DNA from: Clostridiaceae bacterium
Lineage (GTDB): Bacteria; Bacillota; Clostridia; Saccharofermentanales; Fastidiosipilaceae
Reading direction: 5' to 3'
Assembly: GCA_012514965.1 (NCBI GenBank)
Contig: JAAYZH010000166.1
Location: 1 to 17,534 of the forward strand
DNA: 17,534 bases
Shown: positions 488-17,485 of the stretch, one piece after another
How the letters are laid out: each line of letters opens with the position of its first letter
How positions within the stretch are numbered: the stretch's first letter is position 1
Made by a program: the position numbers and the translations under genes
Notes under the pieces: model-generated
What the model was told of the DNA's origin: nothing
Seen by the model: only the letters and a program-made list of their open reading frames with translations
The model's database searches: none

Positions 488-2176
488 TTACAGCTCAAGC
501 ACGCGATCATTTTCGCTGATCACAAAGCTGTAGTCGGAGAGATCCGCCTGCAGCTTTGCTGTATGACCGCCGTTAATCCACGTGAAGACGAGCCGGCTGC
601 CGTCGTCCTCGACTTCCAGTTCAGAGTCGAAGCCGAAGGCCGGGCAGGTGGCGCGCCAGCGCAGCATGGCAAGCTGGCGCCGGACCACGGAGGTCTCCAG
701 AGCGCGATCGATGGCCTCGGCCGAGAGGTTCGTGCGGTTGATCTCTTTGTGGCCGCCGGGGCCGGCTTTGGCCACCCCCTCGTGGTCGTTCTTGCCGGCG
801 AACAGGTCCAGGTACCAGACCTGGGGCTTGCCGGGCATGAAGAGCTGGATGGCTCTCGCCAGCAGCAGGCGCTGCTCATCCTCGCCCAGGGCGCTGAAGT
901 AGGTGGCGTTCACCTGATAGTACATGCCCTTCTGGCCGTGCAGATTCTTCACATAGCCGCCGCGCGCCACCAGTGTCTCGATCAGCGTATCGATCTCTTC
1001 GTCGGCCAGGAAGCCGCGGAGGTCCAGGAGCGGGATGCCGTCGTGGCAGCCGAGCATGTTCACCGCGCGAATCTTCTTGTCCCGCAGCTCACGGGCCCAG
1101 GCGGCCAAAGCCGCGCCGTTCTGCTTCTCAAAAGAGTAGAGCACCAGCCCCGGCAGGAAGAAGTCGTAGACCATGTAGCCCTTGTCTGCCAGCACCTCGT
1201 AGATCTTCTCACCATATTGTGCGTGAATCTCGGGCAGCAGGGCGAGTCCATATGTGTCAGCCAGCTCCTGGACGCGGGCCAGCACGTCCCAGGTGCCGGG
1301 TTCGTTCAGGAAGTTCTTGGCGCCGGGTTCTTTGGGGGCGTAGGCAAAGGCATCGAGGCGGACGATTTTGGCCCCGTAATCAGCCAGCTGCCGCAGGGTG
1401 CGATCATAATAGTCCCAGACCAGAGGCGAGCGAATGTCGAGGTCCATCTGTCCCAGATAGCGACGGTTCGACTCCAGCCACGCCACTACCTTGTCCTTGT
1501 ATTCTGTATAGGGTCCCAGGTCAAAGTCAGCACTCGGCTTACCGGAGTCGATCTGCGGGTCGAGGAGCGAGACAAGCTGAACAGCCTCGGCGTACTGCAG
1601 GTCCAGGGCCTGCATGAGCTCCTGGGTGTCGGCCTTCTTGTAGCGGATTTCCTGGTAGAACGTGTTCCAGTAGGGCACATCACGCCCGTCGGGGAAACGC
1701 ACCATCAGGATGGGCAGGCCGGGCTTGCGGAAGAACATGTGCTCCAGGTAGCGGGGTTCGGGCTGGATATAGCCGGCTTCGGTCAGGGGTCCGCAGCCTT
1801 CCCAGAAGCGGTTCCAGTGAATAAAAAAGTCTTTGTATTCGGAGTCTTCGCCCTTCTGCAGCACATCCTGGAATTCCCTGGACAGCACAGAGGCGTGGTT
1901 GAGGATAAAGTCGAGCTTGAGGTCGAGCCCCTGTTCCTTCAAAGCTGCAAGGTCTTCAGGCCGGGCCAGGGTCTTGTTCAGGCTGTAGTCCACGATCGAA
2001 AAGCCGCGGTCCAGATCCGAATTAAAGACACTGGGGAGAATGTAAAATGACTGGAAGACACCGGCGAGTGCAGGCCGGGCCAGTAAGGCCGAGATGTCCC
2101 CGAGTCGTCCGCCCATGCTGTCCGGATACGCGTTGAGCATGGGGCCGTTATCGACGAATTTCGCTTGTTCTGCCAT
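488..2176 (-). CDS. GH13_18 glycoside phosphorylase (sucrose or sucrose-6-phosphate phosphorylase-like)
   Basis: The 562-residue product is a GH13 (alpha/beta)8-barrel enzyme of the sucrose phosphorylase subfamily, which cleaves an alpha-glucoside with phosphate to give glucose 1-phosphate. The catalytic triad is visible: nucleophile D275 in VRLDAFAY, acid/base E316 in LLPEIH, and transition-state Asp D379 in GCHDGIP. The conserved LNH of region I is at 92-94. It is longer than classical sucrose phosphorylases (about 490 residues), mainly through an extra segment around 176-240 between PYWNTFY and MDLDIRSP. No signal peptide, so cytoplasmic. It starts 3 nt after the kinase stop codon, with GAGGG 7 nt before ATG, implying translational coupling. 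Its neighbours (alpha-galactosidase and a kinase) favour sucrose 6-phosphate or sucrose as substrate. Length would also suit glucosylglycerate or glucosylglycerol phosphorylases of the same subfamily. Confidence 0.85.
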   Translation of the reverse strand: MAEQAKFVDNGPMLNAYPDSMGGRLGDISALLARPALAGVFQSFYILPSVFNSDLDRGFSIVDYSLNKTLARPEDLAALKEQGLDLKLDFILNHASVLSREFQDVLQKGEDSEYKDFFIHWNRFWEGCGPLTEAGYIQPEPRYLEHMFFRKPGLPILMVRFPDGRDVPYWNTFYQEIRYKKADTQELMQALDLQYAEAVQLVSLLDPQIDSGKPSADFDLGPYTEYKDKVVAWLESNRRYLGQMDLDIRSPLVWDYYDRTLRQLADYGAKIVRLDAFAYAPKEPGAKNFLNEPGTWDVLARVQELADTYGLALLPEIHAQYGEKIYEVLADKGYMVYDFFLPGLVLYSFEKQNGAALAAWARELRDKKIRAVNMLGCHDGIPLLDLRGFLADEEIDTLIETLVARGGYVKNLHGQKGMYYQVNATYFSALGEDEQRLLLARAIQLFMPGKPQVWYLDLFAGKNDHEGVAKAGPGGHKEINRTNLSAEAIDRALETSVVRRQLAMLRWRATCPAFGFDSELEVEDDGSRLVFTWINGGHTAKLQADLSDYSFVISENDRVLEL

Positions 2177-2179
2177 GGT

Positions 2180-3124
2180 TTAGCCCTCACTTTCGTGCAT
2201 TTGTTTTACATAGTCCGCGTACGAAAGCAGGGTGCCGTCTTTGGCCACAATTATGCGGGCTTTGGGGGCCTGTGTCTGCAGCAAGCGCTGCTCGATCTCC
2301 AGCACCAGAGTCGTAAAGGCGCTGTCAATCGCGCCGTCGCGGTTACGTGAACGACGGTGTGCCAGTGTCTCCTGCGGCGTGCTGTTCAACAGAATGGGGA
2401 TATCCACACCCCTGTAGCCATCGCTGTTGCCGTGTGTCCACTCGATAATCAAGACTTGCACCGGGCCAAAATCGACCTTCTCATACCACAGAGAGGCTTC
2501 ATCGCGCCCCATACGTTTCAGCCAGATCTGCTCCTGACCGTCCTTAAACTGGCGCACAATCTGCTCAACCTCGGCAAAGTCGATCTCCTTGTCCGTGCCC
2601 AGGTAACCCTCCAGGGCCTGTCTGCCGCCGGCCAGATAGGCCGCATACCAGGGATGGTCCGCGAGATGCCGTGGCTCGGCGTCGATCGCCTCACGCTGCC
2701 ATTGCTGCACCAGCTCGACGCGCTCGGGGGTCAGAACCTCCGCAGCCGCCAACGCCCGCATGCCGCCCTGCCGGAACAGATGCAAACGCTCCGCGTCGTT
2801 ATACAGCGGAATCCTCCGCGGATAGTTATCGCCGGACAACGTGTAGCTGCCGATTCCATTCTGGTTCAGATAGTAGGACAGAATCGACGCCAGCTCAGAC
2901 TTGCCGACCCCCGAACCTCCGCAAACGGTCACCACCGCACGCTTGGCCGGGTTCTCCGGCACGACCTCGATAAGCTGGCGGACCAGTTCCGGGAAGATCA
3001 CGTCTGCCTTGCGGATGTGTGCTTCACCGATCTCGATTTTGTCCCCCGGCATGTCACCCTGGGGAATACGTTCCGGCAGCTCCATGCCCTTCCAGGCCAG
3101 CAATTTGCTCAATTTCTCTACCAT
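2180..3124 (-). CDS. P-loop kinase, probable sucrose kinase (AgaSK kinase-domain-like)
   Basis: The product is 314 residues from the ATG at 3124, chosen because AAAGGG lies 8 nt upstream; a longer frame to 3181 has no ribosome site and would cover a palindrome. Walker A is GGSGVGKS at 69-76, followed by LSGDNYP at 97-102 (Asp typical of uridine-kinase-type folds) and an Arg-rich lid-like stretch at 257-262. Proteins of this kind are often labelled adenylylsulfate or uridine kinase by similarity. The better clue is context: it sits between a GH36 alpha-galactosidase and a GH13_18 phosphorylase. In Ruminococcus gnavus AgaSK a P-loop kinase is fused to the C-terminus of GH36 and phosphorylates sucrose. 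I infer that this is a stand-alone equivalent. The ATPase fold is clear; the sugar substrate is inference. Confidence 0.68.
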   Translation of the reverse strand: MVEKLSKLLAWKGMELPERIPQGDMPGDKIEIGEAHIRKADVIFPELVRQLIEVVPENPAKRAVVTVCGGSGVGKSELASILSYYLNQNGIGSYTLSGDNYPRRIPLYNDAERLHLFRQGGMRALAAAEVLTPERVELVQQWQREAIDAEPRHLADHPWYAAYLAGGRQALEGYLGTDKEIDFAEVEQIVRQFKDGQEQIWLKRMGRDEASLWYEKVDFGPVQVLIIEWTHGNSDGYRGVDIPILLNSTPQETLAHRRSRNRDGAIDSAFTTLVLEIEQRLLQTQAPKARIIVAKDGTLLSYADYVKQMHESEG

Positions 3125-3232
3125 GTGTTGCCCTTTCCGCGTGATTTGGCGGGTATTGTTTTGGCCAAAAGTTCGGGCCAAAGTCCGCCTGTTGCGCTAA
3201 AGCCTTATATATATATTATACAATAGTCGCAG
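3125..3232 (-). promoter_or_regulatory. Leader of the kinase-phosphorylase pair with TTTTGGCCAAAA palindrome and possible promoter
   Basis: The gap after the alpha-galactosidase holds a perfect 12-bp palindrome TTTTGGCCAAAA at 3159-3170, 35 nt upstream of the kinase start, and an AT-rich tract whose minus strand reads TATAAT at 3220-3215. A convincing -35 is lacking. The kinase and phosphorylase may therefore have an internal promoter as well as read-through from the alpha-galactosidase gene. The same 15-bp sequence around the palindrome recurs at 7395-7409 before another gene start. Confidence 0.4.
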
Positions 3233-8281: not shown

Positions 8282-8327
8282 GGTGGGGCTAGATAAACGA
8301 CATTTTTGGCCAATTTCGGGGTTGGAT

Positions 8328-8609
8328 GGACAAAATTTTCGATATTCCAAGCCCAGAGCACACACTTTCGCAATTTTTGTCCAGATCTGAGGGGGCGGTG
8401 GACAAAATTTTCGTTATTCCAAGCCGCGAGCACACACTTTCGCAATTTTTGTCCAGATCAGGGGGTGCGGTGGACAAAATTTTCGTTATTCCAGGCGGAG
8501 GGCACACACTTTCGCAATTTTTGTCCAGATCAGAGGGTCCGGTGGACAAAATTTTCGATATTCCAAGCCCCGGGCACACACTTTCGCAAATTTTGTCCAG
8601 AATCACCCC
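8328..8609. repeat. Array of four 72-bp units with internal inverted symmetry
   Basis: Units start with GGACAAAATTTTCG at exactly 8328, 8400, 8472 and 8544. Each has a 14-bp left arm, about 27 middle bases containing ATTCCA and CACACACTTT, and a right arm CGCAATTTTTGTCC matching the left arm's complement at 12 of 14 positions (13 of 14 in unit 4). A 17-base linker ending in CGGT follows. Arms and CACACACTTT are conserved; substitutions are concentrated in a short block after ATTCCA and in the linker. All three plus frames and at least one minus frame are open through the array, but no start has a convincing ribosome site. I do not call it coding. Confidence 0.9.
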
Positions 8610-8855: not shown

Positions 8856-10271
8856 TCAGGCCCCGTGGCGGTGCATTTCCACTTGAAGGTATTTGGCCAA
8901 AGCTTCCTCGAGGATGTCGGCGACGTGACCGCGGACGAAGCAGACATGGTGCTCGAAGCCGTTGTCGCACATGTACTTGAGCAAGCCTTGCAAATTCTCG
9001 ACTTCGCAGTAGGCTACGCCGCCCTTGGTGGGCACGGCGACATCGCTGAAGTGGCCTTCGCCGACATAGCCCTTGATGATGCCTTTGGGATCGTCGGTGG
9101 ACAGGCGGATGAAGGTCATGGGGCCGGCGCTGACGCTGCCCTTGATGGCACCGAAGGTTTTCTCAGAACCGAGGACGCTGCCGAGGACGTCGAGGGAGCC
9201 CAGCTCGAGTTCGTCATTGGCAAAGAAGCTCTTGGGGAAGTTTGAGCAGTGCAGGGATATGCAGCTGTTGCGCTCGTTGTCGACGTTGTTGTTCCAGTCC
9301 ATAAGGGCCGGGGCGCTGTCGGCGGCCAGGCGGGCGGCGAGCATGCTGAGGGCGCCGCAAACGTCGCTCTCACAAGCGCTGGGTTTGCCTTGGTCGCCCA
9401 TCATGGCCATGCCGAGGCAGGTGGCGCAGCCGTAGTTGTTCTCGATGCTGTCCCAGCACTGAACGGAACTGGCCTGGCAGTCGAGCTGCTCGACGAAGTC
9501 TTCCATCGTGAGGATCAGTTTGGCCTGGAGCACGAGTTTCTCGTCGGGAAGCCCGGCAGGCAGGGTGCCGAAGGCACGAATCTCCTCGACTTTGGCCGCG
9601 ATTTTGTTGCTGTCGCTGTAGGCTTTGGCCGCGGCAATGACTTCGCTCATGTCGACGGTCTGGACGGAGATGTCGTTTCTCTGCAGGATTTTCTCGGAGA
9701 AGCGCACGGTGTTGAAGGCGATCGGTCTGGCGCCGAGCATGGCGATCCTGGAGCCTCGGATACCCTGGACGACACGGCAGACGCCGGCGAAGCGACGGAG
9801 ATCATCCGCGAAGTCGGGGCCGTCGATGTCACAGGTGTGGAGGGTGGTCGTGCTGTAGCGGATGCCGCGTTGGTAGAGGTTATTGCACAGCGAGAGCTTG
9901 CCGCAGAAGGCATCGCGACGATTCTCCATGTCGAGTTTGTCGTAGTCGTCGTTGCAGGCCTGGATCAGGATGGGCACGTCGAGGCCGGCCAAATGGATGG
10001 CTTCCGCGACGCCCAGCTCTTCGCCAAAGTTCGGGAGGATCACGATAATGCCCGAGATCTCTTCGCGTTTCGCCTTGAAGAGGCGGGCGCAGGTTTTGGC
10101 CTCCTCGTAGGTCAAAACAGCACCCAGGTCTGTGTATTCGCTGCCGAGCATGACATAGCCGAAGCCTTGGGCATCCAGGGCCTCGGTGATCTGCCTGCGG
10201 GCGGTTTCCACCAGGTGTGACGGGAAAAAGCTCCTCGTCGTTACAATCACGCCAAATGTTTGCTTACTCAT
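8856..10271 (-). CDS. L-fucose/L-arabinose isomerase family protein, candidate D-apiose isomerase
   Basis: The 471-residue protein has the fold of COG2407 fucose/arabinose isomerases: an N-terminal Rossmann-like domain (GVIVTTRSFFP at 7-17, GIIVILPNFGEE at 74-85), a middle domain, and a C-terminal beta-barrel. Candidate metal and catalytic residues are E301 in ACESDV, D325 in LMDWNN (24 residues apart, as E337 and D361 are in E. coli FucI) and H449 in VRGHVADILEE. It would interconvert an aldose and a ketose using a divalent metal. It is the last gene of a five-gene operon, 6 nt after the FGGY kinase, with AAAGG upstream. Because the operon also has a kinase and a two-part transketolase and lies near an apiosidase-like gene, I favour D-apiose to D-apulose. 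Another pentose or deoxysugar remains possible. Confidence 0.8.
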   Translation of the reverse strand: MSKQTFGVIVTTRSFFPSHLVETARRQITEALDAQGFGYVMLGSEYTDLGAVLTYEEAKTCARLFKAKREEISGIIVILPNFGEELGVAEAIHLAGLDVPILIQACNDDYDKLDMENRRDAFCGKLSLCNNLYQRGIRYSTTTLHTCDIDGPDFADDLRRFAGVCRVVQGIRGSRIAMLGARPIAFNTVRFSEKILQRNDISVQTVDMSEVIAAAKAYSDSNKIAAKVEEIRAFGTLPAGLPDEKLVLQAKLILTMEDFVEQLDCQASSVQCWDSIENNYGCATCLGMAMMGDQGKPSACESDVCGALSMLAARLAADSAPALMDWNNNVDNERNSCISLHCSNFPKSFFANDELELGSLDVLGSVLGSEKTFGAIKGSVSAGPMTFIRLSTDDPKGIIKGYVGEGHFSDVAVPTKGGVAYCEVENLQGLLKYMCDNGFEHHVCFVRGHVADILEEALAKYLQVEMHRHGA

Positions 10272-10277
10272 TTTGAA

Positions 10278-11750
10278 TCACCTTTCATTAATCACAGCAA
10301 CCGCGTTCTTCCAGGCCCGGAAGCGGCGGTCCCGCTCGATTTTGCTGATTTGGGGGAGGATTTCTCTGGCGCTGTTCTCTGCGCCGGCCTCAAGTGGATC
10401 GAGAACGCCGGCTGCTGCGCCTGCCACTAGGGCGGCGCCCTGACCGGAAAGCTCTTCGATGCCGTTCATTCGCAGCGGGATCTGCAGCATGTCTGCCTGC
10501 AATTGCATCAGGAAGCCATCTCGCGTGGGTCCGCCGTCGGCGCAGATGAATGTCAGGGGCCGGCCGATGGCCTGGTCGACGACCTCAACAACATCGGCAA
10601 TCTGATACGCGATGCATTCTTCGGCCGCGCGCACGAGATGTGCTTTTTTCGTATTGCGGTTCAGGCCCAGGAAGGCGGCCCGCGCGTGGTTGTTGAAGTA
10701 GGGAGCTCCGAGACCGCTGAAGGCAGGGATCAGAAACACACCGCCGGTATCTTCTACCGTGGCTGCGAGGACACCCGCTTCTCTGGGCTCTCGCAGCAGC
10801 TCAATATCGTGGACAAGCCAGTCGATAACGGCGCCGGTGTAGTTGATATTGCCTTCAATCGCGTAGGTGATCGTGCCGCCCAGGCCCCAGGCCAGACTGC
10901 TGACGACGCCCGGTACAGCCGCGGGCCGCTGCGGGCCGGCATTGACCATCACGGATGAACCGGTGCCAAAGGTGACTTTAGCCGTATTCTGCTGCCAGCA
11001 GCGATTGGCGTACAAAGCCGCGTGACTGTCGCCCAGCACCCCATGTACCGGACAGGGCTCCGGCAGGAGGCCATCGAAGTCGGTGCAGCCAAATAAACTG
11101 TCACTAAAACAAATCTCGGGCAGGACGTCCGTGCGGAGGCCGAAAAGTTCTACCACGTCGGGATCCCAGGCCAGGGTGTCGAGATTCAGCAGCTGCGTGC
11201 GGCTGGCATTGGAGTAATCCGTCTTGAATGCTCCGGTCAGCTTGAAGAGCAGCCAGGCGTCGATGGTGCCGCAGCAGAGATCTTGCTGCTCATAGGCTTC
11301 CCGCACTGCGGGGAGATTCTGCAGCATCCAGGCATATTTGGCCGCGCTGAAATAGGGTGACAATGGCATGCCTGTTACGGCTTGCACGAGGTCGGCCTGG
11401 CCTGCGGCTTCGATCGTTGCTGTAATCGATTCAGCTCTCGCGCACTGCCAGACGATCGCGTTGCACAGAGCTTTGCCGCTCCCGCGGCTCCAGCATACGG
11501 CGGTTTCCCTCTGGTTCGACAGCCCGATCGCCTTGACAGCTGAGGAGTCGACGCCGCTTTGGTCCAGCAAGCCTCCCACGACCGCGAGGGTATTCCGGTA
11601 GATTTCTTCCGGATCGTGTTCGATCCAGCCGAGCTCGTTCGTGATCTGCCGATGGCGCTTGTCGAAGCGAGAGACCAGCTTGCCCATGCTATCCCACAAC
11701 AAGGCCTTGGTGGCAGAAGTGCTCTGATCAATGGACAAGACGTAGTTCAT
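10278..11750 (-). CDS. FGGY-family carbohydrate kinase, candidate apulose kinase
   Basis: The 490-residue protein is a full-length FGGY kinase, close in motifs to glycerol kinases (IDQSTSATKALLWD at 7-20, GLSNQRE at 76-82, GTIDAWLLFKLTG at 161-173). The catalytic base is expected at D241 in GDSHAALYA, and the phosphate loop at FGTGSS (261-266). It would phosphorylate a ketose or polyol with ATP. The ATG overlaps the stop codon of the transketolase C-half by four bases (ATGA), so expression is coupled. Glycerol kinase is the obvious alternative by sequence. However, no glycerol uptake or glycerol-phosphate dehydrogenase gene is present, and the operon supplies an isomerase before and a transketolase after it. 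That favours apulose to apulose 4-phosphate, as in the known D-apiose transketolase pathway. Confidence 0.8.
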   Translation of the reverse strand: MNYVLSIDQSTSATKALLWDSMGKLVSRFDKRHRQITNELGWIEHDPEEIYRNTLAVVGGLLDQSGVDSSAVKAIGLSNQRETAVCWSRGSGKALCNAIVWQCARAESITATIEAAGQADLVQAVTGMPLSPYFSAAKYAWMLQNLPAVREAYEQQDLCCGTIDAWLLFKLTGAFKTDYSNASRTQLLNLDTLAWDPDVVELFGLRTDVLPEICFSDSLFGCTDFDGLLPEPCPVHGVLGDSHAALYANRCWQQNTAKVTFGTGSSVMVNAGPQRPAAVPGVVSSLAWGLGGTITYAIEGNINYTGAVIDWLVHDIELLREPREAGVLAATVEDTGGVFLIPAFSGLGAPYFNNHARAAFLGLNRNTKKAHLVRAAEECIAYQIADVVEVVDQAIGRPLTFICADGGPTRDGFLMQLQADMLQIPLRMNGIEELSGQGAALVAGAAAGVLDPLEAGAENSAREILPQISKIERDRRFRAWKNAVAVINER

Positions 11751-12688
11751 AGGCGCGCGCGCTCCAGCAATGCCCCGGCTTCGCGCGCGATGTTCTCGGC
11801 GGTGAGCCCGTAGTGCTCGAAGAGTTCCTGACTGCTCCCGACCTTGTACTCTTCATCGGGGAAACCCATGATCTTCAGGGGTACGCAGTGGTTTTGCGCC
11901 AGGATGCCCGCGACCATTTCGCCCAGGCCGCCGTGTATGCTGTGCTCTTCGATGGTGAGGATGGCCTCCGTGTCATAGCTTGCCTGGATGACCGCCGCGG
12001 CGTCCACCGGCTTGAGGCGGAACATGTCCAGGACGCGGGCCGCGATCCCGGCCTCCGCCAGAAGACCCGCCGCCTTCTTGGCGTAGAGGACCATTTCGCC
12101 GCAGGCAATCAGGGTGATGTCGCTGCCGTCACAGACGACTTTGGCCCGTTCGATGTCGAAGGATTCCCCGTCCTCGTAGACGGCTTCTACATCACCGCGG
12201 CCGATCCGCAGCCACACGGGCTTGCCGTCTTGCGCAATGTGCTTTGTGATCGCCGCAGCCTGGACCGCATCTGCCGGCGCATAGATCTCGAGGTTTGGCA
12301 ACGCACGCATAGAAGCGAAATCGTTGAGTGTTGTATGGGTACCGCCGAGAGGCCCGTAACTGACCCCCGCCGAAACACCAATCAGCTTAACGTCGGATTC
12401 GTTGTACGCAACATCGATTTTTACCTGCTCGTAGGAGCGGGCGGAGAGGAAACAGGCCGGGCTCAGGACGAAAACGGTTTTGCCCGTGGAGGCCAGTCCG
12501 CTGGCCACGCCGACTGCGTTCTGCTCGGCAATCCCGCACTCGATGAAACGTTCCGGGAACAAGTCCGCGAGACCCGTCACCATGGCGCTGCCCCGGGAAT
12601 CCGTGGTAACGATATACACATTGGGATTGGCAGCTGCCTCTGTCTGGATCGCGGCGGCAACTGCCCCGCGTACGGATACCTTAGTCAT
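11747..12688 (-). CDS. Transketolase C-terminal subunit
   Basis: The 313-residue protein carries the pyrimidine-binding and C-terminal domains of transketolase. E55 in ECGIAEQNAVG is the conserved Glu that activates thiamine diphosphate; GPLGGTHTTLNDFASMRALPN (about 133-153) is the usual second motif, and the C-terminal domain runs from about 190. It is one half of a two-subunit enzyme. It overlaps the N-half gene by 8 bases and the kinase gene by 4. In the D-apiose pathway such a pair (AptA/AptB) transfers a ketol unit from apulose 4-phosphate to glyceraldehyde 3-phosphate, giving DHAP and xylulose 5-phosphate. A general pentose-phosphate transketolase of the split type is the alternative. 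Confidence 0.92.
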   Translation of the reverse strand: MTKVSVRGAVAAAIQTEAAANPNVYIVTTDSRGSAMVTGLADLFPERFIECGIAEQNAVGVASGLASTGKTVFVLSPACFLSARSYEQVKIDVAYNESDVKLIGVSAGVSYGPLGGTHTTLNDFASMRALPNLEIYAPADAVQAAAITKHIAQDGKPVWLRIGRGDVEAVYEDGESFDIERAKVVCDGSDITLIACGEMVLYAKKAAGLLAEAGIAARVLDMFRLKPVDAAAVIQASYDTEAILTIEEHSIHGGLGEMVAGILAQNHCVPLKIMGFPDEEYKVGSSQELFEHYGLTAENIAREAGALLERARL

Positions 12689-13511
12689 GACGAAGCCCCC
12701 TTATCTGTTCTTGCAGATCTGCCTTGATCTGCTTGTACTCTTCCTGCGAAGGTGTCTTGTGGTGCCAGCTGGCCTTGTTCGCCATCACGGCAGAACCATA
12801 GCCTTTCGTTGTGCGGGCAATCACCAGCAAGGGCTGATCTGCAAGGCGTTCTGCGCTAATTGCCTCGATGATTTCCGCGGGTTCGTGACCGTCGCACTCC
12901 TTGACCTGCCAGCCGAAGGCGCTGTATTTCGCGGCTAGATTGTCGATCGGCATGACCTCTTCTGTGGAGCCGGAAATCTGGAGGTAGTTGCGGTCGATCA
13001 CGGCTGTCAAATTGCCTAGGCCGTATTTGCTGGCCGCCATGGCAGCTTCCCAGTTCGAGCCCTCGGCCTGTTCGCCGTCGCCCATGAAGACATAGACATT
13101 TGCCGGTGACGCGTCGTTCTTGCACGCGATCGCCATCCCCACGGCCAAAGGCAAGCCATGCCCCAGCGCCCCGGTGGCCATTTCCACACCCGGCACCTTC
13201 TTCGTCGGGTGCTCGGCCAAAATCGTGTCGAAGGCCGCGTAGGTCTCAAGCAGTTCTTTCGCGAAAAACCCGCAGTCCGCCAGCACCGTATAGAGACTGT
13301 CTCCGCAGTGTCCCTTGCTCATCACAAAACGATCGCGGTCAGGGTCCTGCCGCTTGATCTTCTCGACATCCATGATGACGTAATAGAGACTTACCAGGAT
13401 GTCCAGTCCGGACATGGCCCCGCCGATATGGCCCGACTTCGAGCGCATCACGACTTCCAAGACATCCAGTCTGCGCTCCATGGCAATTGTTTTCAGCTCG
13501 TTTGTTTGCAT
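12681..13511 (-). CDS. Transketolase N-terminal subunit
   Basis: The 276-residue protein is the thiamine-diphosphate-binding half of transketolase. It has SGHIGGAMS (26-34) with H28, KGH with H68, TGALGHGLPLAVG (113-125), and the metal/ThDP motif from GDG (144-146) to N175 in VIDRNYLQ. AAGGAG lies about 11 nt upstream of the ATG. It is 14 nt downstream of the esterase gene and overlaps its partner by 8 bases, which ensures equal amounts of both subunits. The two halves together equal a full transketolase lacking nothing obvious. Substrate choice cannot be read from these motifs; context suggests apulose 4-phosphate. Confidence 0.92.
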   Translation of the reverse strand: MQTNELKTIAMERRLDVLEVVMRSKSGHIGGAMSGLDILVSLYYVIMDVEKIKRQDPDRDRFVMSKGHCGDSLYTVLADCGFFAKELLETYAAFDTILAEHPTKKVPGVEMATGALGHGLPLAVGMAIACKNDASPANVYVFMGDGEQAEGSNWEAAMAASKYGLGNLTAVIDRNYLQISGSTEEVMPIDNLAAKYSAFGWQVKECDGHEPAEIIEAISAERLADQPLLVIARTTKGYGSAVMANKASWHHKTPSQEEYKQIKADLQEQIRGLRHD

Positions 13512-13525
13512 GCGTCTGCCTCTCC

Positions 13526-14407
13526 TTACTGTTCTGAGCCTCGGCTGCCAAGCAACTCTAACTCCTGCAGATCCTCATCAGAGATCAAGCCGGGGATCCA
13601 TTCACTCGGTACATCCGCGACCTCCGGCCTTCCGAAGGTCCGCCACAGCCACTCTACGCTGAGTGAATGCCAGCTGCCGACATGGCTATCCACCATGGCG
13701 GTGCGACCATTCGCTGTGATTCTCCTTGCCAAAGACAAGCCATGCTCCCCTTCCTGGTACAGATGCAGTTCAAAGGGAACCTTGTTCTTGTCGTAGGCCT
13801 GGGCCAGCGCCAGCAGATCCCCCGCCGTAACCAGGACATCCCCCACCGTCCCCCAGCTGAACATAGGCGGTGCGTCGGTCGTGACCTGCGCAGGCAGGTT
13901 CACCTTCTGGGCTTCTTCCGTGGTATATTCTTCACTCAAAATCGTTTTCGCAATGGTCGATGGTGCTCTACCGCGAAACAGGGTCGTGGCTGCATAGGAC
14001 AGGACCAGAGCATTAGGCTTCGGATTCCCACATATACCCACCCAGGCCGCGAGGTGCCCGCCGGCGGAGAAACCACAAACTGCAACTTTGTCAGGGTCTA
14101 CATGCCAAGCCTCCGCGTTTTGGCGGATAAGAGCAATGGCGGCTTCTGCCTCCTTGAGCGGTTGGTAGTTTCTCGCCCGCTTGCCCACCGAATAGCGAAG
14201 AACAAAGGCCTGGAAGCCTTCGGCAGCGTAGGCCAGAGCAACGGGTTCGGCTTCACGATCGGAGGTAAAGAGATAGGCGCCGCCGGGAAAGATCAGGACA
14301 GCAGGCCGCGTCTGCACGGTCTTCATTTCGCGGGAGGGCTCCTGGATATAGGTTGTCAATTCGGCCCCCAGCTCACCAATTTTTTGCTTCTCAATTCTCA
14401 TAAGCAA
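13526..14407 (-). CDS. Alpha/beta-hydrolase, carbohydrate or aryl-ester esterase (BD-FAE/Aes-like)
   Basis: The protein of about 293 residues has the alpha/beta-hydrolase fold with nucleophile S114 in GFSAGGH, D190 in GTVGDVLV and H222 in GEHGLSL. PGGAY at 41-45 replaces the usual HGGG oxyanion motif. These are features of the acetylxylan- and feruloyl-type esterases near COG0657. No signal peptide, so cytoplasmic. The start is ambiguous: TTG at 14407 has AAAGGAG exactly 6 nt upstream, while the ATG two codons later (14401) has only a weak AGG at good spacing. It is the first gene of the operon, so its job is probably to remove acyl groups from the imported glycoside before or after sugar release. 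Confidence 0.85.
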   Translation of the reverse strand: MLMRIEKQKIGELGAELTTYIQEPSREMKTVQTRPAVLIFPGGAYLFTSDREAEPVALAYAAEGFQAFVLRYSVGKRARNYQPLKEAEAAIALIRQNAEAWHVDPDKVAVCGFSAGGHLAAWVGICGNPKPNALVLSYAATTLFRGRAPSTIAKTILSEEYTTEEAQKVNLPAQVTTDAPPMFSWGTVGDVLVTAGDLLALAQAYDKNKVPFELHLYQEGEHGLSLARRITANGRTAMVDSHVGSWHSLSVEWLWRTFGRPEVADVPSEWIPGLISDEDLQELELLGSRGSEQ

Positions 14408-14649
14408 CCTGTACTCCTTTTACTCTTTTGCTTTTGCCGCAGTCGATGATTTCCAGCTGAAGTAGACGTGTTCAGGCCGGATCAAGTCTGTACCCTAAGC
14501 ATAAAGAAGGCTTCACTAAATTAAAATTAATTCTTTAGTGATTTTTAGCTAAATTTAGCTAAATCCCACCTCAAGCAGGCTTTGCTGTGCTATAAATAGA
14601 CCAAACAGCACACTTTCACCTTCCATCCGAAACGCCAGGAGACACAAGA
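14408..14649. promoter_or_regulatory. Divergent control region between esterase operon and lacI-type gene
   Basis: The region is AT-rich in its middle. It holds TCACTAAA (14513-14520) inverted as TTTAGTGA (14534-14541), then two TTTAGCTAAA palindromes. TGCTATAAA (14588-14596) is an extended -10 for the regulator gene. On the minus strand TTATGCT near 14500 is a weak candidate -10 for the operon. AGGAGA 8 nt before the ATG at 14650 and AAAGGAG at 14420-14414 on the minus strand are the ribosome sites. Confidence 0.6.
14544..14563. promoter_or_regulatory. Two abutting perfect palindromes, probable LacI-family operator
   Basis: TTTAGCTAAA occurs at 14544-14553 and again, directly adjoining, at 14554-14563. 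Each is a perfect 10-bp palindrome with a central GC. The pair sits upstream of the regulator's -10 and between the divergent genes, the usual place for an autoregulating LacI-family repressor. Confidence 0.6.
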
Positions 14650-15666
14650 ATGACATCGAAAGAACTCGCCAGGAAATTAGGTCTGTCAGAAGCCGCCGTT
14701 TCTCTCGCACTCAACAACAAGCCGGGTGTAAGCACCACTACCCGAAACCGGGTCAAAGCTGCTGCCGAAGCAGCCGGTCTGGAGCTGGCCGGGATGAGCA
14801 GCCCCCAGCAGGCCGGCGTCATCTACCTGGTCTATTTCCGCAGGCACGGCGCGGTCCTGGCCGACACCTCCTTCTTCTCCGAGCTTACCGAAGGCGTCGA
14901 AAGAGGCTGCTCCGCCAATGGCTACCGCGTGAATATTCTCAATGTGTACCAGCTCGAGGACTTGCAGCGTACACTGGATAACGCTCATGCAGCGGGTGTT
15001 GCCGGCGTGATTCTCTTTGGCACCGAGATGCGCGAAGAAGACTTTGCCACGCTGGATTTTAGCCGCCTGCCCATCGTCCTGCTCGACAACCACTGCCCGT
15101 CAGCGACAATCGATTCCGTGCAGATCAATAACCTCGACGGCGCTTTTTTGGCCACAGACTACCTCATCAAGCAGTGCAAGCAGCAGCCAGGCTACCTCAA
15201 GTCCGCCTACCCCATTATGAATTTCGCCCAGCGCACAGCCGGCTTCCGCAAGGCCATCACGTACAACGGTATGTCGAAATCTTCCGCCATCATTCACGAG
15301 CTCACCCCCTCCATCGAGGGCGCCTGTGACGATATGCTGGAGATCCTGAGCAGCGGCGACAAACTGGCCGCCTGCTACTTCGCCGACAACGACCTGATTG
15401 CCATCGGAGCGATCAAGGCCTTCAAGGCCAAAGGCTATCGCATACCGCAGGACATCTCCGTGCTGGGCTTCGACGACATCGCCATGTGTGACTATACCGA
15501 ACCTGCGCTCACCACCATTCACGTACCCAAGTGCTACATGGGCTTGATGGCCGCCGAACGCTTGGTCTACCTCATCAAGAACAAGTCGCTCTATCCCGTG
15601 AACATCCAGGTGGCCACCCACCTCGTGATCCGAAACTCAATCACCTCGACAGCCCAGGGCGACTAA
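14650..15666 (+). CDS. LacI-family transcriptional regulator
   Basis: The 338-residue protein begins with the LacI helix-turn-helix (SKELARKLGLSEAAVSLALN at 3-22) and hinge region (to about 50). A periplasmic-binding-protein-like sensor domain follows (about 57-325), with the family signatures LLDNHCPS, AGFRKAI and VLGFDDIAMCDYTEPALTTIHVP. Its length is normal. It is divergent from the esterase-transketolase-kinase-isomerase operon and convergent with the apiosidase-like gene, so it most likely controls one or both in response to the sugar or a phosphorylated intermediate. The adjoining palindromes at 14544-14563 are its likely operator. The effector cannot be predicted from sequence. Confidence 0.95.
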   Translation: MTSKELARKLGLSEAAVSLALNNKPGVSTTTRNRVKAAAEAAGLELAGMSSPQQAGVIYLVYFRRHGAVLADTSFFSELTEGVERGCSANGYRVNILNVYQLEDLQRTLDNAHAAGVAGVILFGTEMREEDFATLDFSRLPIVLLDNHCPSATIDSVQINNLDGAFLATDYLIKQCKQQPGYLKSAYPIMNFAQRTAGFRKAITYNGMSKSSAIIHELTPSIEGACDDMLEILSSGDKLAACYFADNDLIAIGAIKAFKAKGYRIPQDISVLGFDDIAMCDYTEPALTTIHVPKCYMGLMAAERLVYLIKNKSLYPVNIQVATHLVIRNSITSTAQGD

Positions 15667-15673
15667 GCTAGTA

Positions 15674-15705
15674 AGCCCCGGCGCTGGCAGGCCAGCACCG
15701 GGGCT
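15674..15705. terminator. Terminator hairpin between convergent genes
   Basis: AGCCCCGG (15674-15681) pairs with CCGGGGCT (15698-15705), then one mismatch, then GCTGG/CCAGC around a 4-nt loop. It starts 7 nt after the regulator stop codon. The 3' side reads CCTTCTATCC, a weak U-tract. It may serve both the regulator and the convergent glycosidase gene. Confidence 0.75.
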
Positions 15706-15740
15706 CCTTCTATCCTATACGCAGGCCACAGCCCTCAGGT

Positions 15741-17276
15741 TTAGCCGGCTACGCGACGCAACTGAATCGCCATGTATTGCTTGCCGGGCAAGGCAACCCT
15801 GAAATGCCCCTTGACGATCCCGCGATCCTCCACGGTCATGTCCCAAGTATCGATGACCTTCAGCTCATATTCGCTGTGGTCGTCGAAGTAGTACTCCCGA
15901 AAAGACGGTCTCATAAAGCTATAGTAATAGAGGTAATAATCTTTGACCGGTGAAAACGAGCTCTTCGTCCCTTCCACAGTCGCAGCCACCTCATCAAAGT
16001 GTGCCCCCGTATAGGGAGCCAAACCCACACCCGGCGTCTGGCACAGAATCTCGTGTAAAAACGCAAGTCTCTTGTAGGTATCCGAACGCAGCTTGCCACC
16101 GTGTGACCACCATAAGATATCATCCTCGCTCATGTAGGTTTCGCCATGTCCCGCGTACGCTCCGCGGCAAGTAGCTTCCCAGAAACGACGCACCATCTCC
16201 TCTCCGGTGATATTGCCCCAGCCATGCTGAATATTCCCCTCGTAGACAATCTCATCCAGAACAATCGGCTTTTGGTAGCGTTCACGCCACTCATTCACGT
16301 GTTCTGCAGTCTTATAGATGTCCTGTCTCTGAATGCTGCAGTGCGTAATCCAGGGACGTGTATAGTCATAGAAATATCTGCAGTTGTGAATCGAGCGCAG
16401 GCGGCTGTATGGGTCCTTCTCGACGATAATCTTCGCGTAACGCTCCCAGTCCGCAATCGTCTTGTGTTCCATGATGTCGTACTCATTGGCCAACGACCAC
16501 CAGACATTCCGGTACGCGCTAAATCTCGCGATTACATAATTCCAGTACAAGTCATCCTGGTCCGCCGTCATAAACGAGAAGCCCCAACGGTCGTAAGGAT
16601 GCATGACAATCAGGTCTGCCTCAATCCCCAGCTCGCCCAGCTGCTGGATTGACTTCTCAATGTGCCGGAAATGCTCCACGTTGAAGCGGTAGAAATCCCA
16701 ATCGTTGCCCTCATTCGGCCCAATATAGTGAAAAAAGTTATCCTTCGACAATACACTGGAGTCCATCGGTGTGCCCTCGTAGGGATAGGACCGCGGCTCA
16801 CGGAAGTTGTAATCATAGTGCTTAGGAAAAATACAAAAACGAATCTTGTTGAAAGGAGCCTTCTTGAGCGTCTCCAGCGTCTGCTCGATCAGCTCATCGC
16901 TCTGCAGCTCCCACACATAGCAAGTCGTGCCGACCGAGAAATACGGCTCTCCATCCTCATAGGCAAAATGGAAAGTATTCGCCACCCGCACCGGCCCATG
17001 GTTGCCCTCCTGCGGCAGCGTCACGAAGAAGCTTCCACCCTGTTCCCCGGCCAAAAAACTCCCCGAAACCGCAAACGTATACTGTCCCTCAAACGACGGC
17101 ATGAAACGAACCTTGTACACGCCCTCACCATCATAGAAGCCATCCGCCTCTACCGTTTCGTGCGCACCCGTGAAGACACCCTTGATCACCTGATCCACAA
17201 AGGGGTTGCCATCCGTCGGTCCCGGCAGCGAAACCTCAAATACACCCCATTTCTCAACCTGCTCAACAAAATTCAT
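15741..17276 (-). CDS. DUF5060/DUF4038/DUF5605 glycoside hydrolase, candidate apiosidase (GH140-related)
   Basis: The 511-residue protein has an N-terminal beta-sandwich of DUF5060 type (about 6-88), a central barrel of the DUF4038/apiosidase type (about 95-400) and a C-terminal beta domain like DUF5605 (about 425-508). The barrel shows FNKIRFCIFPKHYDYNF (142-158), MHPYDRWG (225-232), WWSLANEYD (259-267) and VLDEIVYEGN (339-348). E265 and E342 fall where clan GH-A enzymes carry acid/base and nucleophile, and are my best catalytic guesses. DUF4038 is the domain of the Bacteroides GH140 apiosidase that acts on rhamnogalacturonan II. No signal peptide, so it works on imported oligosaccharides or glycosides. 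AAAGGAG lies 9-10 nt before the ATG. Domain borders are by eye and GH140 membership is unproven. Confidence 0.78.
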   Translation of the reverse strand: MNFVEQVEKWGVFEVSLPGPTDGNPFVDQVIKGVFTGAHETVEADGFYDGEGVYKVRFMPSFEGQYTFAVSGSFLAGEQGGSFFVTLPQEGNHGPVRVANTFHFAYEDGEPYFSVGTTCYVWELQSDELIEQTLETLKKAPFNKIRFCIFPKHYDYNFREPRSYPYEGTPMDSSVLSKDNFFHYIGPNEGNDWDFYRFNVEHFRHIEKSIQQLGELGIEADLIVMHPYDRWGFSFMTADQDDLYWNYVIARFSAYRNVWWSLANEYDIMEHKTIADWERYAKIIVEKDPYSRLRSIHNCRYFYDYTRPWITHCSIQRQDIYKTAEHVNEWRERYQKPIVLDEIVYEGNIQHGWGNITGEEMVRRFWEATCRGAYAGHGETYMSEDDILWWSHGGKLRSDTYKRLAFLHEILCQTPGVGLAPYTGAHFDEVAATVEGTKSSFSPVKDYYLYYYSFMRPSFREYYFDDHSEYELKVIDTWDMTVEDRGIVKGHFRVALPGKQYMAIQLRRVAG

Positions 17277-17317: not shown

Positions 17318-17485
17318 CTGGCGTCTGGCTCCTGGCTTCTGGCCTCTGGCCCTTGGCTTCTGGCCTCTGGCCCCTGGCTCCTGGCTTCTGGCTCCTGGCC
17401 TCTGGCCTCTGGCCACTGGCCCCTGGCTTCTGGCCTCTGGCTCCTGGCCTCTGGCTTCTGGCCTCTGGCCTCTGGCTTCTGGCCA
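17318..17485. repeat. Heptanucleotide tandem repeat, 24 units of CTGGCNN
   Basis: Twenty-four consecutive 7-base units begin with CTGGC (one begins TTGGC) and end in TT, CT, TC, CC, CA or, once, GT. The first five bases are nearly invariant, while the last two vary mostly between C and T. It lies 42 bases upstream of the glycosidase start. All three minus-strand frames are open through it because the unit cannot make a stop codon. Such short tandem repeats resemble the STRR class described in cyanobacteria. Confidence 0.92.

Follow-up and report, generated by a model that had tools for sequence, protein, structure and literature searches.

In this study, a 17,534-base stretch of Clostridiaceae DNA was analysed, which is one whole contig (JAAYZH010000166.1) of a genome that is 82% complete in 371 contigs and is called the window below. 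It very likely holds a locus for the use of D-apiose by the transketolase route. Apiose is a branched plant sugar that decorates many plant glycosides. Through it, borate cross-links pectin in plant cell walls (PMC10952590). The assignment is based on gene content, homology, gene set, phylogeny and active-site signatures of the isomerase, kinase and transketolase in common with the enterobacterial D-apiose cluster. An original prediction, made from the letters of the window without database searches, had proposed an apiose isomerase, an apulose kinase and a split transketolase, and at the sequence level these assignments are supported. All enzyme activities and the reaction products (those of the known pathway) are inferred, and so are the substrate of the glycosidase, what the esterase does, uptake and gene control.

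Every gene named in the original prediction was recovered as an intact frame in the place assigned to it (open reading frame list and Pfam). Five genes form one operon on the minus strand (14407-8856), as had been proposed, in the order esterase, transketolase N subunit (TK-N), transketolase C subunit (TK-C), FGGY kinase and Fuc/Ara-type isomerase, with intergenic gaps of 14, −8, −4 and 6 bases. The predicted LacI-family regulator gene (14650-15666, plus strand; Pfam LacI PF00356 and Peripla_BP_3 PF13377) is divergent from the operon. The DUF5060-type glycosidase gene (15741-17276, minus strand) was also found next to the operon; it is convergent with lacI and has its own upstream region, and is therefore a neighbour of the operon and not a member.

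For comparison, the locus of E. coli SE15 served as the E. coli reference; SE15 is the query strain of PMC13001218 and is not among the strains grown there. According to that paper, growth on apiose is seen with three E. coli strains that have the D-apiose cluster (aplK, aptA, aptB), with E. fergusonii and with Pectobacterium carotovorum, but not with K-12, and the Pectobacterium cluster has an isomerase gene, apsI, where Escherichia has two oxidoreductases instead. Apiose degradation by gut Bacteroides and Clostridia is stated there as shown, with citation of the original work, so the pathway is not new in Clostridia (PMC13001218). Searching with the window isomerase led to clusters of Klebsiella, Sodalis and a Rahnella plasmid, which have the E. 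coli SE15 gene set, partly rearranged, with an isomerase in place of the oxidoreductases. Their common set consists of a binding protein, a DUF2291 protein, an ATP-binding cassette (ABC) transporter, a regulator, tktN, tktC and a kinase, and by this gene content their isomerase is presumably ApsI. Identity to the corresponding proteins of E. coli, Klebsiella and Sodalis is 38-41% for the window kinase, 39-43% for TK-N and 34-37% for TK-C. In two other loci (L094, 2276-11410; L131, 9833-21400), an ApsI-like isomerase shares its stretch with relatives of the two oxidoreductases of the E. coli apiose cluster (59-64%; in L131 one of them is truncated at the end of the locus). This argues against the view in PMC13001218 that the oxidoreductases simply take the place of apsI.

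The kinase (10278-11750, minus strand, 490 amino acids (aa); Pfam FGGY_N/FGGY_C) is glycerol-kinase-like and a candidate apulose kinase. Sequence searches name it glycerol kinase, and its closest solved structures are glycerol kinases, which would favour a second glycerol kinase in an operon for glycerol or pentose-phosphate turnover; in PMC3091722, the corresponding operon of Listeria (lmo1031-1036) is held to be "responsible for glycerol metabolism", with lmo1031 as a hypothetical L-fucose isomerase. With the GlpK model TIGR01311 (cut-off 590 bits), the window kinase scored 503.6 bits and E. coli AplK 495 bits, the same profile, and the GlpK-like protein of relative L192, the only one of its group that was scored, reached 665 bits. 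The closeness to glycerol enzymes, which the original prediction had held to speak against apiose, is thus found on the surface only and for the kinase, as AplK is likewise glycerol-kinase-like and below the GlpK cut-off. Phe270 is a glycerol-pocket residue, with Gln246 as its neighbour. Both positions are Ser in the window kinase, in 3/3 enterobacterial kinases (including E. coli AplK), in Listeria and Monoglobus, and in all 23 linked kinases compared (10 from a 30-locus set and 13 picked from named genomes). Phe270 and Gln246 were present in 19/19 unlinked GlpK-like relatives, which are the rest of the 30-locus set, leaving aside the one of the window's own genome; for the site comparison, 57 linked kinases had been chosen by a score above 300 bits. 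In a quick kinase tree, these 19 relatives were set apart by a branch that had full support in the Shimodaira-Hasegawa-like approximate likelihood ratio test (SH-aLRT), and the window's own genome has a GlpK-like gene piece with F270. On residues 270 and 246 and the kinase tree, the glycerol operon was rejected and is very improbable. By homology, the protein is predicted to be an apulose kinase distinct from GlpK, and as apulose has a glycerol-like branched end, descent of such a kinase from glycerol kinase would be chemically sensible.

The transketolase candidate consists of an AptA-like N subunit (12681-13511, minus strand, 276 aa; Pfam Transketolase_N), with 43% identity to that of E. coli SE15, and an AptB-like C subunit (11747-12688, minus strand, 313 aa; Pfam Transket_pyr and Transketolase_C). 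A split transketolase is a common find and by itself no sign of apiose, so 81 complete pairs, obtained from 87 TK-N matches, were compared with those of the window and E. coli; a pair was called linked when an isomerase match above 300 bits lay within 12 kb. Position 469 is numbered after Asp469 of TktA, and the site was placed through the GEDGETHQ motif of the genome's own full-length transketolase. This residue is Leu in the window, in 4/4 enterobacterial pairs and in 52/52 isomerase-linked C subunits. Asp was kept in 4/4 pairs next to distant isomerases and in 20/22 unlinked pairs, the two exceptions being one Ala and one Leu (L160, which groups with an apiose-type pair). His461 changes to S or N in parallel (H461S in the window), and the catalytic residues Glu411 and His473 are kept. 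Leu in place of Asp469 would be expected if carbon 3 of the sugar bears a hydroxymethyl group.

Phylogeny agreed with the signature. A tree of 53 rows contained a branch, supported at 100/100, that split 36 apiose-type pairs, those of the window and E. coli among them, from 17 others. For this tree, the long-branch pairs L109, L178 and L179 were removed and the first 14 remaining unlinked pairs were used, and L160 was placed in the apiose-type group on account of its L signature and of the linked-type kinase that its contig carries. In a quick 62-row tree (60 of the 81 pairs, the window and E. coli), the 25 other-type rows (21 unlinked and 4 with distant isomerases) fell on one side with an SH-aLRT of 98, and L160 fell on the apiose side. 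By homology, the two subunits are thus predicted to form an apulose-4-phosphate-type transketolase. A housekeeping function of the split enzyme was ruled out by a separate full-length transketolase, a 691-residue frame on contig C88 of the same genome.

Two other arrangements of split transketolases were seen. An ordinary split transketolase adjoins a distant (~25%) Fuc/Ara-type isomerase in L047, L048, L051 and L156, as well as in many genomes from relatives group f2/g10, with Asp469 in the 4/4 pairs checked; we read these neighbourhoods as another isomerase-transketolase pathway. In a clostridial locus (L066, 4518-6617), two similar genes stand directly upstream of an apiose-type TK-N, the first of which is nucleoside-hydrolase-like (PF01156/PF07632).

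The isomerase (8856-10271, minus strand, 471 aa) is a member of the Fuc/Ara isomerase superfamily and is 43-44% identical over 99% to the isomerases of the Klebsiella, Sodalis and Rahnella clusters; by homology, it is a predicted ApsI-type D-apiose isomerase. Residues E301, D325, H441 and H442 were invariant among 46 sequences, and the spacing of 24 between E301 and D325 is that of the FucI metal ligands. Searches of PDB sequences with the isomerase and with its 46-row profile gave no match at E ≤ 1, and the fold and metal site are therefore taken from Pfam and the conserved residues. A viral-contig scan with the isomerase gave no match.

A search of the genome contigs with the isomerase returned at least 538 relatives, and the best 80 loci were analysed. 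The isomerase, TK-N, TK-C and kinase occurred together in 44 of these loci from six phyla (Bacillota 16, Bacteroidota 16, Planctomycetota 4, Pseudomonadota 3, Spirochaetota 2, Thermodesulfobacteriota 2 and unassigned 1). Relatives of the Klebsiella apiose-cluster binding protein (>300 bits) were found in 11 of the 80, 8 of them with the full set. One clostridial locus (L083) has, in a row, genes for a LacI regulator, a binding protein (60%), a small protein, an ABC ATPase and permease (by eye), TK-N, TK-C, the kinase and the isomerase; this row ties the clostridial enzyme set to an apiose transporter.

Several observations weigh against this reading or limit parts of it. TK-N was missing from 31 of the best 80 loci, many of which are short contigs; at least 8 of these loci are ~21 kb long (L094, L095, L098, L105, L108, L114, L125 and L127), and several have other FGGY kinases. 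As ApsI-like isomerases (~50% identity) thus occur without transketolase too, the isomerase alone is no proof of the pathway, and the kinase and transketolase signatures carry the argument. The transketolase is not in full agreement with the enterobacterial enzyme: Arg358 and Arg520 are Ala and Gly in 4/4 enterobacterial pairs and Arg in the window, as in 43/52 (358) and 40/52 (520) linked pairs. Against a link of the glycosidase to apiose, two genomes of the window's family (G007 and G011) have 54-56% identical relatives of it, but neither the isomerase nor, at 1e-40, TK-N had a match there. The locus had been called complete, which is not supported: no transporter was found within the window, and the Klebsiella apiose-cluster binding protein had no close relative in the 82%-complete genome (best match 25%, 34.7 bits); a different importer may do this work.

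The isomerase would also suit a locus for another sugar (L-fucose, D-arabinose or L-arabinose), metabolised by an isomerase, a kinase and an ordinary split transketolase. Pfam gives the protein as Fucose_iso_C only (PF02952, 92.8 bits), its best NCBIfam model is sulfoquinovose isomerase, far under the cut-off, and the transketolase-free ApsI-like isomerases and the distant isomerases beside ordinary split transketolases in many relatives point the same way. However, the transketolases beside distant isomerases keep D469 and lie on the other side of the tree, and the window kinase and transketolase carry the signatures of the enterobacterial apiose cluster. An L-fucose or L-arabinose pathway was rejected on these signatures, and another sugar as the substrate is unlikely.

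The glycosidase, a candidate apioside hydrolase, has the Pfam order DUF5060-PF13204-DUF5605, where PF13204 (Apiosidase) is the former DUF4038. The PF13204 catalytic domain with its related fold is present, and the enzyme is related to GH140 at the profile-profile level. In PDB it matched 4n0r only (phmmer, E ≤ 1; profile search, E ≤ 0.01), with no GH140 structure among the matches. In the GH140 enzyme BT_1012, the catalytic residues are Asp187 and Glu284, and Glu instead of Asp occurs in 17.3% of PF13204, according to PMC4032388. Glu265 (in an NE motif) stands at the place of Asp187 and Glu342 at that of Glu284, and these two are probably the catalytic pair. The label "GH140-like" was therefore rejected as a family name; judged by its sequence, the enzyme belongs to a family that is sister to GH140 and has Glu where GH140 has Asp, and it is nearest to the uncharacterised BVU_0362.

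Linkage to the pathway was observed repeatedly. DUF5060-type genes (>200 bits) were present in 11 of the best 80 isomerase loci, 9 of which have TK-N, and such a glycosidase stands beside the pathway in Monoglobus, G017, G047 and G062, and in other Bacillota, Planctomycetota and one alphaproteobacterium; Listeria has a GH140-like one there. The configuration is therefore not unusual, contrary to what had been supposed. Among 147 other genomes in the relatives set, the apiose cluster was found in 6/9 with the glycosidase and 5/138 without it (Fisher p 2.8e-6, to be read with the facts that cluster-positive genomes were assigned by hand, that some transketolases could not be checked for the signature and that the genomes are related and so not independent). 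Of 14 glycosidase places (18 rows minus the window's own gene and three rows below 36 bits), 4 (G017, G047, G053 and G062) are within 12 kb of an apiose cluster, with ~1% expected (own estimate, binomial).

The predicted release of apiose inside the cell from an imported apioside is supported to the extent of this gene linkage. As proposed, no signal peptide was seen in the glycosidase, with a maximum 12-residue mean hydropathy of 0.86 in the first 42 residues; nor was one seen in any of the six minus-strand enzymes (maximum 1.58), as judged by hydropathy with no signal-peptide program. Whether apiosides are its substrate, with an intracellular apiosidase step, we regard as evenly balanced on the evidence of sequence and linkage. 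The enzyme might instead cut another linkage of the same imported plant oligosaccharide (e.g. mannosyl, rhamnosyl or another beta-linkage next to apiose) in a D-apiose pathway where apiose is freed otherwise, which is a lesser but real possibility. Against this, the DUF5060 gene is the only such glycosidase seen by BLAST in the Monoglobus and G062 loci, no second PF13204 gene was found in the available part of the window's genome, and apiosidase (8t9w) is the only PF13204 activity named among the matches met here. In the open-licence literature, no paper linking DUF5060 proteins or Listeria lmo1031-1036 to apiose was found among the matches listed, which is weak evidence of absence.

Other enzymes accompany related glycosidases and stretches. 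In L145 and L146 (from G007 and G011), the DUF5060 glycosidase is near an ABC transporter and GFO/IDH/MocA-type oxidoreductases (Pfam was run on L145 only, which also has a xylose-isomerase-like barrel); these neighbourhoods are perhaps an oxidative route. L079, L080 and L081 add GH29, GH31 and GH43 enzymes, respectively, to the stretch, and L081 also ABC permeases, as might be expected if a complex pectic oligosaccharide were taken up.

The first gene of the operon encodes a serine esterase (13526-14407, minus strand; Pfam BD-FAE/Abhydrolase_3, alpha-beta hydrolase) with a GFSAG motif; a TTG start is listed, and an ATG at 14401 is possible too. Its relatives among 140 loci (L027-L031, L033-L052 and L065-L179) were two, a weak one in L105 (28%) and one in L147 (63%). 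The latter directly adjoins a DUF5060 glycosidase, and its genome, G033, has an apiose cluster on another contig. The link of the esterase to apiose is thin.

Taken together, the following route is proposed. An imported apiose-containing glycoside or oligosaccharide would lose its acyl groups to the operon esterase and be cut by the cytoplasmic glycosidase to give free D-apiose. This would be converted to apulose by the ApsI-like isomerase and to apulose 4-phosphate by the glycerol-kinase-like kinase. The two-subunit transketolase would split the latter by transfer of a two-carbon unit to glyceraldehyde 3-phosphate, giving xylulose 5-phosphate and dihydroxyacetone phosphate.

The LacI protein, which is 50% identical to the LacI of the Monoglobus cluster, would repress the operon, probably at a perfect 20-base palindrome, TTTAGCTAAATTTAGCTAAA (14544-14563), between the operon and lacI. 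The palindrome is the sole site at ≤3 mismatches in the available genome sequence, which leaves the glycosidase without a tie to the LacI regulator; the palindrome's half-site occurs twice in the window, a count reached in 4/200 shuffles. Promoter and terminator scans of the window gave no more matches than in shuffled sequence.

Further features were noted around the locus. Just downstream of the isomerase gene (8327-8601) is a 72-base tandem repeat of 3.8 copies with 91% matches, open in several frames, and a 7-base tandem repeat, CTGGCCT, of ~24 copies (17318-17484) lies close to the end of the contig, upstream of the glycosidase gene. At 488-3181, near the apiose cluster, the window has a GH13-type gene, which has an alpha-amylase domain and by eye is sucrose-phosphorylase-like, and a P-loop-type gene; both recur near the cluster in L035 (1-2661; G019), with 62% and 57% identity, and in the window a GH36 alpha-galactosidase comes after this pair.

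The proposal can be extended beyond the window. Tentatively, and with a little less than even confidence, DUF5060-PF13204(Glu type)-DUF5605 proteins may be a new apioside-active family, sister to GH140, which in Clostridia would have imported acylated apiosides or rhamnogalacturonan II-type oligosaccharides as cytoplasmic substrates and feed the transketolase pathway; together with this, kinase F270S/Q246S and transketolase D469L would reassign "glycerol" and "fucose" operons such as Listeria lmo1031-1036. In L. monocytogenes NCTC7974 (L030, 4004-13086; by gene order lmo1031-lmo1036 of EGD and the adjoining LacI gene), the genes are those for LacI, isomerase, TK-N, TK-C (Leu469), "glycerol kinase" (Ser270), a phosphotransferase system (PTS) beta-glucoside transporter and a GH140-like enzyme. 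From its sequence, this looks like an apioside operon; lmo1036 is called beta-glucosidase in a passage of PMC8079631. With these signatures, candidate apulose kinases can be told simply from glycerol kinases, and candidate apulose-4-phosphate transketolases from ordinary ones, which present annotation confuses. The linked DUF5060 family offers a candidate apioside-releasing enzyme of a new kind that can be tested directly, and the crystal structure of a relative (4n0r) is solved.

Compared with known systems, the window has the four enzyme families of the D-apiose transketolase pathway (MetaCyc PWY-8089; ApsI, AplK, AptA and AptB of Pectobacterium and relatives), with the overlapping tktN-tktC pair and, as in the E. 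coli proteins, F270S/Q246S in the kinase and D469L in the transketolase. It differs in having a LacI regulator instead of a sugar-binding regulator, Arg kept at transketolase 358 and 520, no ABC transporter, and an added esterase and cytoplasmic glycosidase. The glycosidase differs from the GH140 apiosidases (BT_1012, 3kzs/5msy; 8t9w) in its catalytic Glu and in the extra N-terminal DUF5060 and C-terminal DUF5605 domains, and its only PDB match, BVU_0362 (4n0r), is a bacteroidete protein, a putative glycoside hydrolase of Bacteroides vulgatus. The Monoglobus pectinilyticus cluster (NZ_OY725736, L031) is like the window in having LacI, isomerase, tktN, tktC, a glycerol-kinase-like kinase and the DUF5060 glycosidase. 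Listeria lmo1031-1036 shares all of these up to the glycosidase, which is GH140-like (DUF4038), and has the PTS transporter in addition. The isomerases of both are of another subfamily, 24-26% identical to that of the window, and Monoglobus has an SGNH hydrolase. The pathway in the window is thus a known one, joined to a different and apparently uncharacterised glycosidase family and an added esterase with no visible apiose ABC transporter, in a configuration common to many bacteria.

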